NCBI RefSeq assembly: GCF_021190955.1
Contig: NZ_JAIOAO010000001.1
Coordinates: 558,001-622,000 of the forward strand
Direction: 5' to 3'
Source of the DNA: Parachryseolinea silvisoli
Lineage (GTDB): Bacteria; Bacteroidota; Bacteroidia; Cytophagales; Cyclobacteriaceae
Length of the DNA stretch: 64,000 bases
The notes under the pieces were generated by a model. The model had not been told where the DNA came from. It made no database searches and was given only the letters and a program-made list of their open reading frames with translations. Position numbers and translations under genes: made by a program. This document shows, one piece after another, positions 1,923-8,053 of this stretch (positions are counted from its first letter, which is position 1; each line of letters begins with the position of its first letter).

Positions 1923-2342
1923 ATGGAACCCTTGCGTCGACTGCTCAAAGCAGAGTTTACCCGTTTCGTAATCGTCGGCGGTATCTCTGCCGTGCTTGAG
2001 TACTCTCTCTACTTTGCATTCAAAACCATTACCGACTATCGCGTGGCCAATGTGCTGGGCTTTATCCTGACCAATGTCGTGACGTACATCCTCACCAAGC
2101 GATACGTATTCACCTCTACCACACAGGCCAACAGGGTCTACGAAGCCACGCTGTTTGCCATTTGTCTGGCCGGCGCGTTGGCCGTGAACACGGCCGTGCT
2201 GTGGGCACTTGTCGAATTTGTGTCGATGGACGACAAGATCGCCAAGGCCCTCGCCATTGCTGTGGCCGTGGTCTGGAATTTCTTTACCCGCAAGTACATC
2301 GTCTTCCGCAACCGGGACGTGGCACAGCAAACCGGCAACTAG
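1923..2342 (+). CDS. GtrA family membrane protein
   Basis: Protein of 139 residues with about four hydrophobic segments and the GtrA hallmarks FVIVGGISAVLEY near the N-terminus and WNFFTRKYIVFRN at the C-terminus. GtrA-like proteins are small inner-membrane proteins linked to polyprenyl-phosphate-sugar transfer across the membrane and to cell-surface polysaccharide assembly. I chose ATG 1923 (MEPLRRLLKAEF); an in-frame GTG at 1896 adds nine unconserved-looking residues. No glycosyltransferase is adjacent, so the carried sugar cannot be guessed. The TAG stop overlaps the stop of the convergent thrC, so the two genes share CTAG and there is no room for a terminator. Confidence 0.85.
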   Translation: MEPLRRLLKAEFTRFVIVGGISAVLEYSLYFAFKTITDYRVANVLGFILTNVVTYILTKRYVFTSTTQANRVYEATLFAICLAGALAVNTAVLWALVEFVSMDDKIAKALAIAVAVVWNFFTRKYIVFRNRDVAQQTGN

Positions 2343-3643
2343 AGATTTCCCTGCAGATAAGTTTTAAGCGACGCGAAGTCCGATTTCATCGGCACACTAC
2401 GTTTGGAACGCTGCAAGAACTTTTGCAATGCCGGTGGTATGGCGATAGGCTCTTCCAGTATTTCGTCGACCACTTCCTTAAACTTGGCCGGGTGTGCCGT
2501 CTCGAGAAAAATGCCCGTTACCTCGTCAGTCGTTTCGTCCAGGTAGTGCTGCAAACCCAGGTAGCCAATGGCGCCGTGTGGGTCCAGCACATAGTCTGAT
2601 GATGCTTTTACCAGTCGCATCGCCGCGCGGGTCTCGTCGTCGGTAAAGGCGTAGCCTTTGATCAATGCCGATAGTGCTTTGTAGTCGTGCCCCAGGAGCT
2701 CCAATATACGCGGGAAGTTGCTCGGGTTGCCAACGTCCATGGCATTGCTAATGGTCTGTTGCGACGGACGTGGTGTAAACACTTGTGTTTTGAGATACGC
2801 CGGCACCACATCGTTTACGTTGGTAGTCGCGACGAAGGCGTGAATGGGCAGGCCCATCGCCCGCGCCAGTAAGCCACCCGTAATGTTGCCGAAGTTGCCG
2901 CTCGGTACCGAGAACACCACGGGCCGGCCGAGGTGTTGCACCCGTGCGTATGCATAGAAGTAATAAAACGACTGCGGTATGAGTCGTGCGATGTTGATCG
3001 AGTTGGCGGAGGTCAGGAAGTATTTTTTCTTCAGGTCCTCGTCGAGGAATGCTTGTTTTACCAGGCGCTGGCAATCATCAAAGGTGCCGTCTACTTCCAG
3101 GGCCGTAATGTTCTGGCCCAGGGTCGTGAACTGCTTTTCCTGAATGTCGCTTACTTTACCGGAAGGGTACAACACAATTACCCGTGTACCGGGCACGCCG
3201 AGAAAGCCGTTGGCCACCGCGCTGCCGGTATCGCCTGATGTAGCGACGAGTATAACAATTTCTTGTTTCTGACTGCGGGCAAAGTATCCCAGCAGCTGCG
3301 ACATGAAGCGCGCACCAAAATCTTTAAAGGCCAATGTAGGGCCGTGGAAAAGCTCGAGAGCATAAAGGTGGTCATCCACCTCTACCACGGGTGCGTCAAA
3401 CTGAATGGTGTGGTCTACGATGCGCCGCAGCTCGTCGGCGGGCACGTCGTCGCCCACCAGGTTTTGGGCCACGGCAAAGGCCATGTCGGCAAACGACATG
3501 GACGGAAGCCTGGCAAAGAAGTCGGGTGGTAACGTGGGGATCCGTTCGGGCATATAGAGACCGTTGTCGGGTGCCAGGCCCTGGATTACGGCGTCGCGCA
3601 GATCGACTTGTAGTGCTTTGTTATTCGTACTGTAGAATTTCAT
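2339..3643 (-). CDS. thrC: Threonine synthase
   Basis: Converts O-phosphohomoserine to threonine and phosphate, the last step of threonine synthesis, in the cytoplasm with pyridoxal phosphate. The 434-residue protein has the N-terminal threonine synthase segment (MKFYSTNNKALQVDLRD) and the PLP-lysine motif GPTLAFKDFG with Lys107, followed by the SGDTGSA phosphate-binding loop. The start is ATG 3643; an upstream in-frame ATG at 3706 would run into thrB and gives a non-conserved extension. It lies 13 bp after thrB and closes the thrABC operon. The stop codon overlaps that of the convergent GtrA gene. Confidence 0.96.
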   Translation of the reverse strand: MKFYSTNNKALQVDLRDAVIQGLAPDNGLYMPERIPTLPPDFFARLPSMSFADMAFAVAQNLVGDDVPADELRRIVDHTIQFDAPVVEVDDHLYALELFHGPTLAFKDFGARFMSQLLGYFARSQKQEIVILVATSGDTGSAVANGFLGVPGTRVIVLYPSGKVSDIQEKQFTTLGQNITALEVDGTFDDCQRLVKQAFLDEDLKKKYFLTSANSINIARLIPQSFYYFYAYARVQHLGRPVVFSVPSGNFGNITGGLLARAMGLPIHAFVATTNVNDVVPAYLKTQVFTPRPSQQTISNAMDVGNPSNFPRILELLGHDYKALSALIKGYAFTDDETRAAMRLVKASSDYVLDPHGAIGYLGLQHYLDETTDEVTGIFLETAHPAKFKEVVDEILEEPIAIPPALQKFLQRSKRSVPMKSDFASLKTYLQGNL

Positions 3644-3656
3644 TGTCTGGTATGGC

Positions 3657-4583
3657 TTATAGGATTTTGGCCCCGGCGTTGTTGATCTCCGACACAAATA
3701 CGTCACTCTTGAGTTTCAAGTCCGTGAATTGAGCCTGCATGGCCTCCCCCACCCGTTGTGCCGTGGCGGCGTCGGTCGACAATGCAAAGATGGTGGGTCC
3801 GGAGCCCGAGATACCACAGCCCAACGCACCGGCTTTTACAGCCTCTTCCTTGATGCGATCAAAGCCCGGTATCAACACGGAACGAATCGGTTCGGCCACC
3901 ACATCTTTCAAGGATCGACCGATCAATCCAAAGTCCGGTTTCATCAGGCCTACCACCAGGCCGGCAATGTTTCCCCACTGTGTGATGGCATCCTTTATTG
4001 GTATCGTGGCCTTTAACACGCGGCGCGAATCTTCAGTCTTTAATTCGAGATGCGGGTGTACTAAGGTGCAGAATAAACCCGCCGGTGTGGGAATGCTCGT
4101 CACATCCAGTGGGTCATACCCGCGGATCAATACAAAGCCACCCAACAGCGAAGGTGCCACGTTGTCGGCATGGGCCGATCCACAGGCAATGCGCTCCGAC
4201 TCCATGGCGAACGGCAGCAGCTCTTTACGCGAGAGCGGTTCGCCGTGCAGGTGGTTAATGGCCACGAGGGCAGCCACCGAGCTGGCTGCGCTGGACCCCA
4301 TGCCACTGCCGAGTGCCAGGTGTTTATACAGGGTGATCTCTGCACCCTGCTCGCTTTTAATGGCTTTCAAAAATTCGATGACGGCAACACTGGATGTGTT
4401 GCGCGATGCGTCCCGCGGAAGGCGACCGTCGTCGCCAAAGATCTCGCGAATGACCACGCCCGGTTTGTCGGTCAGGGTCACTACTACCTCGTCGGCGGGC
4501 GAGGCTACAGCAAAGCCGAATATATCGAAGCCGCACGAAACGTTTGCTACCGTTGCAGGGGCCGATGCTCTTACAGATTTCAT
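3657..4583 (-). CDS. thrB: Homoserine kinase
   Basis: Phosphorylates homoserine with ATP to give O-phosphohomoserine, the substrate of ThrC. The 308-residue protein is a GHMP kinase: an N-terminal strand with SAPATVANVSCGFD, the glycine/serine-rich ATP loop LGSGMGSSAA at residues 91-100, and the C-terminal GCGISGSGPTIFAL motif. Length is normal for the family. It sits between thrA (43 bp gap) and thrC (13 bp gap) and is surely co-transcribed. Confidence 0.96.
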   Translation of the reverse strand: MKSVRASAPATVANVSCGFDIFGFAVASPADEVVVTLTDKPGVVIREIFGDDGRLPRDASRNTSSVAVIEFLKAIKSEQGAEITLYKHLALGSGMGSSAASSVAALVAINHLHGEPLSRKELLPFAMESERIACGSAHADNVAPSLLGGFVLIRGYDPLDVTSIPTPAGLFCTLVHPHLELKTEDSRRVLKATIPIKDAITQWGNIAGLVVGLMKPDFGLIGRSLKDVVAEPIRSVLIPGFDRIKEEAVKAGALGCGISGSGPTIFALSTDAATAQRVGEAMQAQFTDLKLKSDVFVSEINNAGAKIL

Positions 4584-4626: not shown

Positions 4627-7074
4627 TTAGCGGGCATAGTGGCCGATGCGGATCACGTCGGCAAATACACCGGCGGCCGTTACCGCGGCACCGGCACCCG
4701 GGCCACGAATTACCATGGGACGCTCGTGGTAACGTTCTGTTGTCAACAAGATAATGTTGTCGCTACCCGATAACGAGTAGAACGGATGCGTGTCGTTTAC
4801 CGTACCCAGTGATACCGCCACTTTGCCGTCTTTCAACACGGCCATGTAGCGCAGCTTCTCCCGGCGGCCGGTGGCATCGGCCAACAGTTTCTCAAATGCG
4901 CTGTCATGTTTCTCCAGTGCGGTAAAGAATGCGTCCACGGAAGTCTGCTCGCGGCAGTCACCTGGTACCAGGTTCTCCACGGTAATGTCGCTCAGCTCGT
5001 ACGGCAGGCCCGCCTCGCGGGAGAGGATCAGAATCTTGCGCGCTACATCCATGCCGCTGAGGTCGTCACGCGGATCAGGCTCGGTATATCCTTTCGCTTT
5101 GGCTTCTTTCACCACTTCGCTAAATTTCTTGCCGGCGGAATAAGAGCTGAAGATAAAGTTCAGCGTACCACTCAGCACCCCTTCGATGCTGATGACCTTG
5201 TCACCGCTCAGGAGCAAGTCATTCAGCGTATTGATCACCGGCAGACCGGCCCCTACGTTGGTTTCATACAGGAACTTCACACCGCGGCGGAAGGCGGTAC
5301 GTTTCAGTGACTGGTATTTTTCGAGCGAACCTGAGTTGGCTTTCTTATTCGGTGTTACGACTGAGATGCTGGCCGACAGGATCGCTTCGTAGAACGATGT
5401 CACCTCTTCACTGGAGGTACAATCTACAAAAATGCTGTTGGGCAGGTTGAGCGATACCATCTGCTCTACAAACTTCTCCATGTGCATGGTTTCACCCTTC
5501 GCCTCGTTCTCGTCCAGACAAGTAGCCGGGGGCAACCCCGCTTCCTGGAAAAGCATCTTGCGGCTGTTCGCAACGGCTATAATGTTTATTTCCAGTAGAT
5601 TCTCTTTTGCCAGTTTGTCAAATTGCTCCTGCACCATGTTGATCAGGGCTTTGCCGATCAGGCCCGTGCCCACGAGGAATACGTTAAGCAGCTTGCGATC
5701 CGACAGGAAGAATGCTTCGTGCAATGCGTTCAGCGCTTTCGCGACGTCGGCTTGCCGCACGACGGCGGAGATATTGCGCTCCGAAGAGCCTTGCGCGATG
5801 GCCATGACGTTCACACCATTTTTACCGAGCGCGCTAAACATGCGCCCGCTGGTACCGGGACTTTGTTTCATATTGTCGCCGACGACCGCGATGATCGAGA
5901 GGTCTGTCTCCACGTGTACTTCGTCGATTTCTTCGTTGCGTATTTCGTATTGAAATTCCTTTTCGATAGCCGATTTGGCCTGACGGGTATACAGGCTTTC
6001 GATCGCGAGGCAGATGGAGTGCTCGGACGACGCCTGGCTGATCAGGATCACGTTGACCCGCTCGCGCGCCAGTGTAGCAAACAATCGCGCCGACGCGCCC
6101 ACCACGCCCAGTAAACCACTCCCCTGAACGCTGAGCAGGCTGATGGCATTCATGGACGATATACCTTTGATCACTTTCCCATTCTTCGACTCGGAATGGA
6201 TAACAGTACCCTGGAATGTCGGGTTGAATGTGTTCTTGATCCAGATGGGAATGCGGTTGACCATGGCCGGCTGCATAGTCGCCGGAAAGATCACTTTTGC
6301 GCCAAAGTGCGACAATTCCATCGCTTCTTCATAGCTCATCTGCGGCACCGTGAATGCCTTCTTCACGAGACGTGGGTCAGCCGTCATCATGCCGTCTACG
6401 TCCGTCCAGATCTCGAGGTCTGATGCTTGCAAGGCACCGGCAAAGATGGCGGCGGTATAATCCGAGCCGCTGCGGCCGAGTGTTGTCGTTTCGCCCGTTT
6501 CGCTGGTGCCGATAAATCCGGTGATGATCTGCAGCGCCTGCTGGCGGCTGAAGTGCTCGCGTATCTGTGTGTTGGTTGTGTCGAAGTCTACTTTGGCGTA
6601 ACCAAAGTTAGCGTCGGTACGCACAACGCGGCGCGTGTCGAGAAACTCCGCCGCGACACCACTGTCTTTGAACGCTTCGGCAATGATATAGGCCGACAGG
6701 CGCTCGCCAAAGCTCATGATATAGTCGAGGGTGCGGGGGGTGCGTTCTTTCACGAGGTATACGCCGTGCAGCACGTCCTCCAGCTCGTTAATGGTAAACT
6801 TAACTTGTGCCAGGATGCTGCTTTGTTTTTGCACGCCTACCAGTGCGCGTACGGCATCGAGGTGGCGGCGCTCAATTTCAGCAAGGGTGGCTTTATATTC
6901 CAGGTTGCCTTCGAGGGCCAACCGGCTGATTTGGATCAATACGTCGGTAACACCGCCAAAGGCGGAAAATACGACAGCAACGTCTTCGCGCAGGTACGGC
7001 TTGACGATCTCGATGACCGACTGTATCCGCGCAGGGGTGGCAACCGATGAGCCACCGAACTTCAATATTTTCAT
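4627..7074 (-). CDS. thrA: Bifunctional aspartokinase / homoserine dehydrogenase
   Basis: Carries out the first and third steps of the aspartate pathway towards homoserine. The 815-residue protein begins MKILKFGGSS, the aspartokinase nucleotide loop, and has the kinase residues FGERLSA and TLGRSGSDYTA. A regulatory ACT pair covers roughly residues 310-460 (VNVILISQASSEHS, VNVMAIAQGSSERN). Homoserine dehydrogenase starts near residue 465 with the Rossmann motif VGTGLIGKAL and contains the GTLNFIFS segment. ACT domains in this enzyme normally mediate threonine feedback inhibition. ATG 7074 was chosen because it places KFGGSS at the usual position; an in-frame ATG at 7128 would add 18 residues that lie inside a leader hairpin. 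It is first gene of thrABC and follows a threonine-rich leader peptide. Confidence 0.97.
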   Translation of the reverse strand: MKILKFGGSSVATPARIQSVIEIVKPYLREDVAVVFSAFGGVTDVLIQISRLALEGNLEYKATLAEIERRHLDAVRALVGVQKQSSILAQVKFTINELEDVLHGVYLVKERTPRTLDYIMSFGERLSAYIIAEAFKDSGVAAEFLDTRRVVRTDANFGYAKVDFDTTNTQIREHFSRQQALQIITGFIGTSETGETTTLGRSGSDYTAAIFAGALQASDLEIWTDVDGMMTADPRLVKKAFTVPQMSYEEAMELSHFGAKVIFPATMQPAMVNRIPIWIKNTFNPTFQGTVIHSESKNGKVIKGISSMNAISLLSVQGSGLLGVVGASARLFATLARERVNVILISQASSEHSICLAIESLYTRQAKSAIEKEFQYEIRNEEIDEVHVETDLSIIAVVGDNMKQSPGTSGRMFSALGKNGVNVMAIAQGSSERNISAVVRQADVAKALNALHEAFFLSDRKLLNVFLVGTGLIGKALINMVQEQFDKLAKENLLEINIIAVANSRKMLFQEAGLPPATCLDENEAKGETMHMEKFVEQMVSLNLPNSIFVDCTSSEEVTSFYEAILSASISVVTPNKKANSGSLEKYQSLKRTAFRRGVKFLYETNVGAGLPVINTLNDLLLSGDKVISIEGVLSGTLNFIFSSYSAGKKFSEVVKEAKAKGYTEPDPRDDLSGMDVARKILILSREAGLPYELSDITVENLVPGDCREQTSVDAFFTALEKHDSAFEKLLADATGRREKLRYMAVLKDGKVAVSLGTVNDTHPFYSLSGSDNIILLTTERYHERPMVIRGPGAGAAVTAAGVFADVIRIGHYAR

Positions 7075-7113
7075 GACAAAGTGTTTTCTGGTTGTTGAGG
7101 TGATTGTTTTTCC

Positions 7114-7149
7114 GATTACGCGTAGCACTTCCTGGAGGTGGACGTAATC
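7114..7149 (-). promoter_or_regulatory. Stem-loop between threonine leader and thrA
   Basis: The thr leader transcript can fold GATTACG (7149-7143) against CGTAATC (7120-7114), with possible short inner pairing CAC/GTG. It lies 40 nt upstream of the thrA ATG. The RNA after the stem is A-rich (GGAAAAACAATC), not U-rich, so it is not a classical intrinsic terminator on the thr strand. It could be an antiterminator, pause or translation-control helix; the role is inferred only from position. Confidence 0.45.
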
Positions 7150-7175
7150 CTAATGGGGGCGGAGGTATACATGCA

Positions 7176-7191
7176 TACGGGTTACCCCGTA
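7176..7191 (-). promoter_or_regulatory. Hairpin over the stop codon of the thr leader peptide
   Basis: In the transcript TACGGG pairs with CCCGTA around a GUAA loop, six perfect base pairs with a GNRA-type tetraloop. The helix contains the last leader codons and the TAA stop, so a ribosome that stalls on the preceding Thr/Ile codons or reaches the stop would control its folding. The 3' arm can alternatively pair within GTATGCATGTATAC just downstream. This is the geometry expected of an attenuator, though no terminator was found. Confidence 0.5.
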
Positions 7192-7244
7192 ATGATGGTA
7201 ATGGTAATAATAGTGGTAATAATCGTTGTCACAACGGTAGCCAT
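7182..7244 (-). CDS. thrL: Threonine operon leader peptide
   Basis: A 20-codon reading frame, MATVVTTIITTIITITIITG, ends 107 bp upstream of thrA. Eight of its 20 residues are Thr and seven are Ile, in alternating pairs, very like the gammaproteobacterial ThrL peptide that senses charged tRNA-Thr and tRNA-Ile. Start ATG is at 7244-7242 and stop TAA at 7184-7182. The same frame stays open upstream to an ATG at 7370 but that part looks like ordinary non-coding leader. Composition, position and the surrounding hairpins make a regulatory leader by far the best reading. The peptide itself probably has no function beyond ribosome stalling. Confidence 0.8.
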   Translation of the reverse strand: MATVVTTIITTIITITIITG

Positions 7245-7251
7245 GGCGATA

Positions 7252-7273
7252 GAAGCTTCTGTGAAAAAGCTTC
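7252..7273 (-). promoter_or_regulatory. Hairpin just upstream of the thr leader peptide start
   Basis: GAAGCTT and AAGCTTC form a perfect 7-bp stem with an 8-nt loop, ending 7 nt before the leader ATG at 7244. It could affect ribosome entry on the leader peptide. No functional evidence beyond position. Confidence 0.35.
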
Positions 7274-7519
7274 CAGGGGAAAGTATATATTGTTTCGCCG
7301 GTGTCATTTGATATCCCGAAATAATGAAACCCTTGCCTTGTTTCCTACAGAAAATTGATGATTTTTGCACGAACTAACGGTTATTAGCGCATTGCAATCG
7401 TATGCAACGAGTCTGATAAAAATATTACCTGAAAAAGTACGGGTATCATTTCCTTAAAAAACATCACACGATACTACAACCACCGGAGCCTGCCCGGCGC
7501 CGGCAGCGATCTTTTCACC
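7274..7519. other. Divergent intergenic region between thr leader and thioesterase gene
   Basis: AT-richer than its surroundings and presumably holds the promoter of the thr operon (minus) and that of the thioesterase gene (plus). On the plus strand TTGCC at about 7332 followed by GATTTTTG ending near 7367 is a weak match to the Bacteroidota -33/-7 pattern. I found no clear TAnnTTTG box on the minus strand, so the thr promoter remains unplaced. No gene is visible here. Confidence 0.4.
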
Positions 7520-8053
7520 ATGAGCGAAACACGAAAAAGTAAATTTCCGCGCGAGTCTTTTGTAAGCATGACAGAGCTTGTTCTTCCGAACGACACCAAC
7601 ACCTTCAACAACCTGATGGGGGGACGGCTCATGCATTGGATGGACATCGTTTCGGCCATCGCTGCACAGAAGCATTCCAACCGCCATGTGGTCACGGCAT
7701 CGGTCGACAACATCTCGTTCAAGCATCCCATTCGCCTGGGCAACGTGGTGACGCTGCGCGCACGCGTGACACGCGCATTCCAATCGTCGATGGAAGTGCG
7801 CATCGATGTCGATGCCGAAGATATACCGGCCGCGCACAAGTTTGAAAGTAATGCTGCCTATTTTACCTTTGTCGCGCTCGACAAGGATGGCAAGCCCACC
7901 GACGTACCCGCGGTTGTAACCGAAACGCCGGAAGAAGCCGAATACTACGAAGGAGCGCTGCGCCGCCGCCAGCTGCGTCTCATCCTGGCGGGAAGAATGA
8001 AACCTTCTGAAGCCGCCGAGCTACGATCTATCTTCGACATCAAAGAATCCTAA
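7520..8053 (+). CDS. Acyl-CoA thioesterase (hotdog fold)
   Basis: Cytoplasmic hydrolase that would release CoA from acyl-CoA. The 177-residue protein has the acyl-CoA hydrolase signature: PNDTNTFNNLMGGRLMHWMD with the catalytic Asn and Asp of the hotdog helix, then ASVDNISFKHPIRLGNVVTL, which is the strand and CoA-binding region. It resembles the YciA/BFIT group; chain-length preference cannot be read from sequence. ATG 7520 is the only sensible start. It is followed after 6 bp by an unknown gene, so the two are probably co-expressed. Confidence 0.88.
   Translation: MSETRKSKFPRESFVSMTELVLPNDTNTFNNLMGGRLMHWMDIVSAIAAQKHSNRHVVTASVDNISFKHPIRLGNVVTLRARVTRAFQSSMEVRIDVDAEDIPAAHKFESNAAYFTFVALDKDGKPTDVPAVVTETPEEAEYYEGALRRRQLRLILAGRMKPSEAAELRSIFDIKES

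Follow-up and report, generated by a model that had tools for sequence, protein, structure and literature searches.

The threonine operon of Parachryseolinea silvisoli raises the question of how a leader peptide rich in threonine and isoleucine might regulate the genes behind it when no U-rich terminator precedes them. The DNA analysed, referred to here as the window, comprises 64,000 nt of contig NZ_JAIOAO010000001.1 (positions 558,001-622,000), and all coordinates below are window positions. NCBIfam profiles identify an operon in the order thrABC on the minus strand: thrA, encoding bifunctional aspartate kinase/homoserine dehydrogenase I, at 4627..7074 (ThrA, 1044 bits), with its start codon at ATG 7074; thrB, encoding homoserine kinase, at 3657..4583 (ThrB, 388 bits); and thrC, encoding threonine synthase, at 2339..3643 (ThrC, 301 bits; a start at ATG 3643 is assumed). 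The divergent neighbour of the leader, at 7520-8053 on the plus strand, is a YciA-like acyl-CoA thioesterase, scoring 76 bits against a curated cut-off of 162. A preliminary description of the region had noted that no U-rich terminator lies before thrA, and a scan of the minus strand of 6900-7600 likewise found no terminator-like site. The same interval contains a single sigma-70-like promoter match on that strand (7234-7207, 9/12), which is at chance level, as shuffling expects 1.0. Directly upstream of the leader ATG lies a block, TTTCATTATTTCGG (7329-7316, minus strand), that is near-identical in loci L007, L008, L010 and L012; other family members have TTAAGATTG or TAACTTTG boxes a short way upstream of the leader, which we take to be of the Bacteroidota -7 type.

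The frame originally described runs for 20 codons from ATG 7244 to the stop codon at 7184-7182 on the minus strand, and encodes MATVVTTIITTIITITIITG, with eight threonine and seven isoleucine residues. These two amino acids account for 13 of the final 14 codons, the highest value among 5000 mononucleotide shuffles being 8. The frame stays open upstream to ATG 7307, giving a leader of 41 codons (MTPAKQYILSPGSFFTEASIAMATVVTTIITTIITITIITG; 7182..7307, minus strand) with the control codons at its 3' end. A similar extension is found in relatives identified through ThrA, such as MQATFTIPFSGSFITKAAPACPSIITISTITIITG in Chryseolinea serpens, and 62 of the 76 family thr loci have an in-frame ATG at least 25 codons upstream of the stop; an ATG at precisely 20 codons occurs in only seven, the window among them, and eight have no in-frame ATG at all, another start codon being possible there. 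On this comparison of reading frames the window's leader probably starts at ATG 7307 rather than ATG 7244, such that the composition and the terminal codons of the frame first described stand, but its start probably does not. Given these frame counts, the hairpin that had been placed before the ATG (TGGAAGCTTTTTCACAGAAGCTTCTA; H1, 7250..7275, minus strand) does exist, with a folding energy of -11.6 kcal/mol (z -2.9), but probably lies within the leader ORF. Hairpins in the H1 position have a mean z of -0.7 over 65 loci, 26 of which fall below -1, with a median centre 65.5 nt upstream of the stop; they recur in many relatives with differing sequences, and have modest support.

The stop codon itself is enclosed by a second hairpin, TACGGG-GTAA-CCCGTA (H2; 7176..7191, minus strand), in the loop of which it lies. 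This structure had been recognised in the preliminary description, and it recurs in relatives with exchanged arms. In order to establish the distribution of such leaders, thrA loci were scored by a rule specifying a stop codon 55-190 nt upstream of thrA, at least six threonine or isoleucine residues in the last 14 codons and a hairpin of at least five pairs overlapping the stop. A leader was found by this rule at 28 of 38 Cyclobacteriaceae-type loci from a contig set (L007-L044, L047) and at none of the 39 other loci of the same set; under an earlier rule, eight of the ten negatives among the 38 had the same ITG-stop ending with a hairpin of just four pairs. A draw of family loci with thrA identities of 58-84%, some genomes of which are shared with the contig set, gave 38 of 44. 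Among more divergent family loci (thrA identity 46-59%) the count was 6 of 46, the family loci together representing 90 of 124 other genomes with a thrA match, and there were 5 of 26 in the rest of the order and 6 of 47 in the rest of the phylum. Shuffles yielded 0 or 1. The Thr/Ile leader is hence kept upstream of thrA in close relatives, which was the conservation check that had been proposed.

H2 takes several forms. Within the family these include ACGGG-GUAA-CCCGU, as in the window, and ACGGGG-UAA-UCCCGU; in other Bacteroidota, ACCCC-UUAG-GGGGU, AACCCC-AUAA-GGGGUU and CAUGCCC-UAAG-GGGCAUG are found; and before some hisG genes, AUUCCUC-GUAA-GAGGAAU and UUCCUCC-UAA-GGAGGAA. At four loci (L216, L217, L274 and L278) the stop codon lies 3' of the hairpin instead of in its loop. 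H2 also differs in the 19 of 76 family thr loci with type B leaders, in which the stop is UAG followed by C. In several of these (L017, L018, L030, L032 and L033), about 95 nt upstream of the thrA ATG, the 3' arm of H2 with an adjoining ACATA (CTCCCGACATA or close to it) appears by eye to be repeated around 25 nt downstream, so that either copy is a candidate partner for the type B 5' arm CGGGG.

Folded as a whole, the 271-nt leader has an unremarkable minimum free energy (z -1.05); the evidence for its structure is comparative. Covariation in H2 was assessed in alignment A7, which consists of 17 thr and his leader rows chosen for a hairpin with a 4-nt loop, leaders with 3- or 5-nt loops and those of type B being left out; as the rows were selected for the hairpin, and nine of the 17 are related family members, the changes are not independent events. 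In this alignment 91.2% of cells are paired and 29 cells are altered on both sides, neither of which was reached in any of 500 shuffles, and covariation scores 0.70, against 0.17, again in none of 500. Shifting the partner by one column lowers the score to 0.42 or less. Five of the six pairs show change on both sides, although this measure alone was often matched by shuffles (171 of 500). These counts exclude alignments A2, A3, A6 and A9, which are out of register at the third hairpin or where loop sizes differ; a further alignment, A1, comprises 47 of 65 non-redundant rows.

H2 covaries across leaders whose peptides differ, and the peptides keep their composition, either Thr/Ile or His, rather than their sequence. 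Both observations argue against the peptide itself being functional, or its conservation incidental, as does the retention of the bases ending the leader (ATTACGGGGTRR or close variants) in 76 family loci, which were gathered by that motif; the ORF is short and conserved, as such an explanation would have it, but we regard it as highly improbable. Many of the peptides of thr leaders L164-L191 contain cysteine, methionine and phenylalanine besides threonine (for example ESCVLGGSTSMFFTTTTITG in L166), and these leaders possibly sense more than threonine and isoleucine.

Downstream of H2, relatives share a linker with the family consensus CATATNRYCC. In RNA form, CAUAUNRYCC is separated from H2 by 8-10 nt in 45 of 65 rows, most often by 9. 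CATAT occurs within the 32 nt following H2 in 46 of the 76 family thr loci, against 4.7 expected from mononucleotide shuffling, and the fuller CATATN(G/A)(C/T)C in 22, against 0.24; a column profile of the linker drew on 62 of 77 rows, but as these were picked by linker score it is partly circular. Degenerate versions are found in the window and in the relatives closest to it: TATACCTCC in the window, placed by eye at 7161..7169 on the minus strand, 6 nt after H2, and CATACCCCAGCC in Chryseolinea. A second copy of the linker, seen by eye upstream inside some his leaders, was rejected as a general feature, as CATAT is not enriched at this position in thr leaders (11 of 76, against 7.7 when shuffled).

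The third hairpin of the preliminary description, ahead of thrA, is present at 7114..7149 on the minus strand (H3, GATTACG...CGTAATC) on the basis of folding, with TCCAGGA (7136-7130) in its cap. TC(C/A)AGGA is found within 90 nt of the stop in 22 of the 76 family thr loci, that is, the window and 21 relatives, in or near the H3 cap; as judged from these loci, the motif is kept as sequence, beyond what a plain stem would need. Pairing of the C-run of the linker with the 5' arm of H3 was noticed by eye in some rows.

The order of control codons, H2 and H3 resembles that of the trp, his and thr attenuators, and it might be supposed that this is a classical attenuator, in which the 3' arm of H2 pairs downstream as an antiterminator when the ribosome stalls, H3 otherwise acting as a terminator with an unusual tail. 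Taken singly, most relatives do appear by eye to fold H3. However, the covariation of H3 in 15 his rows does not exceed that of shuffles, and a consensus fold computed from 22 thr rows contains H2 alone, although that alignment is out of register at H3. Blocking the 5' arm of H2 and the stop codon, as a stalled ribosome would, leaves the 3' arm mostly single-stranded in predictions over 75 loci (0.84). The freed arm re-pairs in just four of these, below the 8-18 obtained after shuffling of the downstream sequence; the window, where the freed arm is unpaired with a value of 0.22, belongs to these four, and a classical switch is conceivable there. U-tails are also rare: such sites were detected in nine of 76 family thr leaders (0.95 in shuffles), three of the four examined in detail involving H2 itself, and in one of 22 stop-hairpin his leaders (0.25 in shuffles). 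The same scan found them in 7/7 his and 7/8 ilv leaders considered ordinary, two of nine such his loci having dropped out by the scan pattern; these sets were picked by eye for their U-tails, so the counts testify to a working scan and to the existence of such leaders, not to their frequency. We therefore consider the classical arrangement distinctly unlikely.

The stretch that follows H2 is, as a group property of the 76 loci rather than of the window alone, C-rich and G-poor. Over the first 50 nt past H2, cytosine outnumbers guanine in 96% of the 76 thr leaders, as opposed to 45% of 127 thrA loci without a detected leader (p 2.5e-22, a value that is too small given that the rows compared are related). 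The corresponding figure is 77% for 22 his leaders, and 55% for stretches 150-100 nt upstream of the stop. C-rich, G-poor RNA is favourable to Rho, and the composition, together with the lack of a U-tract, is what would be expected of plain Rho attenuation, with Rho loading on the C-rich stretch after translation of the leader, a stalled ribosome or the polymerase excluding it, and H2 merely closing the stop region. Such an explanation seems unlikely, as a fixed linker at a near-constant distance from a covarying hairpin exceeds what Rho should need, the C excess is smaller in his leaders and the stretch before thrA is short, the distance from the stop codon to the thrA ATG having a median of 97 nt (range 75-151 nt). 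At such distances the stop codon also lies beyond simple translational coupling, and whether H2 forms makes no difference to how accessible the thrA start is predicted to be (mean change -0.002, n=75). Both points weigh against control at the level of translation or RNA stability, according to which H2 or H3 would alter thrA translation or constitute a processing site whilst leaving transcription unaffected. The lack of a terminator would suit such control, and CAUAU might, speculatively, be a cleavage site; nevertheless we consider it very unlikely. Of the options originally put forward for a leader without a terminator, translation is thus disfavoured, and the base composition is in keeping with Rho.

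The same arrangement is found ahead of a second operon. Some hisG genes of the same family are preceded by histidine leaders ending VHHFHHSS-stop, in which a hairpin surrounds the stop and the linker reads ACAUAUCGCCC; ATA and CGCCC are invariant across 15 aligned his rows, some of which were found with the linker model. Reading by eye suggests that around 11 of 29 hisG loci have leaders of the stop-hairpin type and nine of the U-tailed type, to which the hisG leader of the window's own genome (L272), an ordinary his attenuator, belongs. Outside the family, 16 of 27 his leaders appear U-tailed by eye, the 27 being 29 new loci less two family members, with 49 further hisG matches left unread. 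Four his leaders, three of them from another family (L381, L382 and L384) and one from the same family (L273), enclose the stop within a GUGC...GCAC hairpin, behind which lies a pyrimidine-rich stretch; they lack the CAUAU linker and a clear U-tail, and are perhaps a related subclass.

In order to search for further examples, we used a covariance model of H2 and the linker, R2, built on A7 with three his rows in training; R2 took the place of an earlier model (R1), made from thr leaders that share one type of arm, which failed to retrieve the his hairpins in the correct register. Among hisG leaders outside the training set, R2 matched L282 (35.1 bits), L280 (31.4 bits) and L266 (25.5 bits) and, with lower scores, L278 (22.4 bits), L262 (19.6 bits) and L263 (17.4 bits). 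Searching 148 genomes of the phylum (E<=0.5) gave 15 matches, ten of them upstream of a thrA-type ORF, as assigned by coordinates in four cases and by reading the N-terminus by eye in six, and five without such a leader. Searching 40 family genomes (E<=2), with filters that may have lost weaker members, gave 52: 25 at thrA, assigned by coordinates and not re-read; 19 before hisG, six assigned by coordinates and the rest by reading the sequence by eye; and eight without a leader, taken as chance. Hence, beyond thrA and hisG leaders, R2 found just weak, chance-like matches in these 148 and 40 genomes. One was at L328 (G274), at approximately 1501-1545 of the reversed locus (23.7 bits, E 0.31), where a hairpin AACCCC...GGGGTT with CATATTACC sits 76 nt upstream of what by eye is an rpoB-like ORF; no leader peptide was seen, and it was taken as chance. 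The window's own leader scores 16.5 bits with R2 (E 0.8 in 267 kb), and a search of the window's own genome returned no match at E<=2, nor at 0.5; with this score and its degenerate linker, the window belongs to the class only weakly.

We favour the reading, to which we give a probability of about one half, that the thrABC leader is a ribosome-mediated attenuator without a U-tract, with H2 exerting its effect on RNA polymerase directly. Comparison of the loci has shown the elements on which it draws, namely the conserved leader, H2 and its covariation, the linker of the relatives, the rarity of U-tails, the sharing with hisG and the lack of a conserved competing partner. Sensing of amino acids by the leader is well supported; its direction, pausing or termination as its output and the helper involved are what we infer. 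The ribosome translating the leader would read a run of threonine and isoleucine codons ending at H2, which overlaps the stop codon. Were charged tRNA-Thr or tRNA-Ile scarce, it would stall on these control codons with its footprint over the 5' arm of H2, H2 would not form, and RNA polymerase would continue into thrA. Were the amino acids abundant, the ribosome would terminate and depart, allowing H2 to fold, and the folded hairpin, about 9 nt from the conserved linker, would cause the polymerase to pause or stop, probably with the help of a factor, for instance Rho, that acts on the C-rich, G-poor stretch; the output may also be a new terminator. Formation of H2 would itself be the signal, since no other well-supported structure is within reach of a ribosome that has arrived at the leader's end, and since H2 lacks a conserved alternative partner. 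In enteric his and trp leaders a hairpin stabilises a polymerase pause, and the arrangement here, with a hairpin some 10 nt back from a conserved sequence, is similar.

A more general proposal, which we put forward tentatively and with some doubt, is that the short hairpin, the spacing of about 9 nt and CAUAUNRYCC together form a distinct stop or pause signal that Bacteroidota use for RNA polymerase, requiring neither a U-tract nor a competing antiterminator. As the stop codon of the leader lies in or beside the hairpin, leader ribosomes would gate it directly, by sitting on it, and the module would serve in the thr and his leaders of this family beside ordinary U-tailed attenuators. Attenuation is the textbook example of RNA-based amino-acid sensing, but its models are built upon enteric bacteria and the U-tract terminator; a covarying, terminator-less leader that operons of a major phylum share would demonstrate a second mode of coupling leader translation to transcription. 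A small, defined RNA would then be available on which to test pausing and factor-dependent termination in Bacteroidota directly, and ordinary attenuators from the same family could act as controls.

Rfam gave no match in the window at the gathering threshold, and nothing but a tRNA in the loci of 20 relatives. Bacteroid-trp RNA precedes trp genes and has a tryptophan leader; its model (RF01692) matched none of 39 genomes, the window's own included, and nothing in the window. It is listed amongst the cis-regulatory motifs of Bacteroidetes in the part of the literature covered (PMC2864571). In Flavobacterium psychrophilum there are strong clues for leader-peptide attenuation ahead of amino-acid operons, and hisG and pheA have conserved 5' elements without Rfam matches (PMC9723704); the section of that paper concerned gives no structure for them, and overlap with the elements described here is possible. 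Short ORFs reminiscent of leader peptides also occur in long 5' untranslated regions of B. thetaiotaomicron (PMC7366714, in the portion available). The portions of the literature searched, which included PMC9723704, PMC7366714, PMC2864571 and PMC8632094, contain no such architecture, although the supplement of PMC9723704 may list parts of it. This suggests that the stop-hairpin leaders of thr and some his operons are an undescribed form of amino-acid sensing.

One close comparison is with the enteric thr attenuator (RF00506), to which the leader had first been likened on account of its peptide. The likeness holds for composition and place, as in both a Thr/Ile-rich leader, presumed to sense charged tRNA, directly precedes thrA(BC), but not beyond: the RF00506 model, Thr_leader, finds no match in 7000-7450 even at E 10, where the only matches are five weak ones to unrelated families, whilst E. 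coli thrL, as a positive control, scores 122 bits. The E. coli leader has a GC stem and a run of nine T before thrA, whereas the window has no U-tract and its stop codon is inside a hairpin loop. An enteric-like attenuator does occur upstream of thrA at L135, from another family of the same class, where a Thr/Ile leader is followed by a stem and U-run (AAGCCTTCC...GGAAGGCTTTTTTG); L130 has a stem like that of L135, with a weaker tail. The ordinary his and ilv attenuators picked by eye within the family (L272; L290 and L298-L300) likewise have a control-codon leader before a biosynthetic operon, but with a strong stem and U-run, and give no credible match to R2. In tnaC-type leaders, tryptophan causes arrest at the stop codon and so induces a catabolic operon, in a Rho-dependent manner. 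These resemble the present leaders in that a ribosome near the leader stop codon would gate termination without a U-tract; they differ in that the stop is, in the present leaders, enclosed by a hairpin and preceded by control codons specifying the end product.
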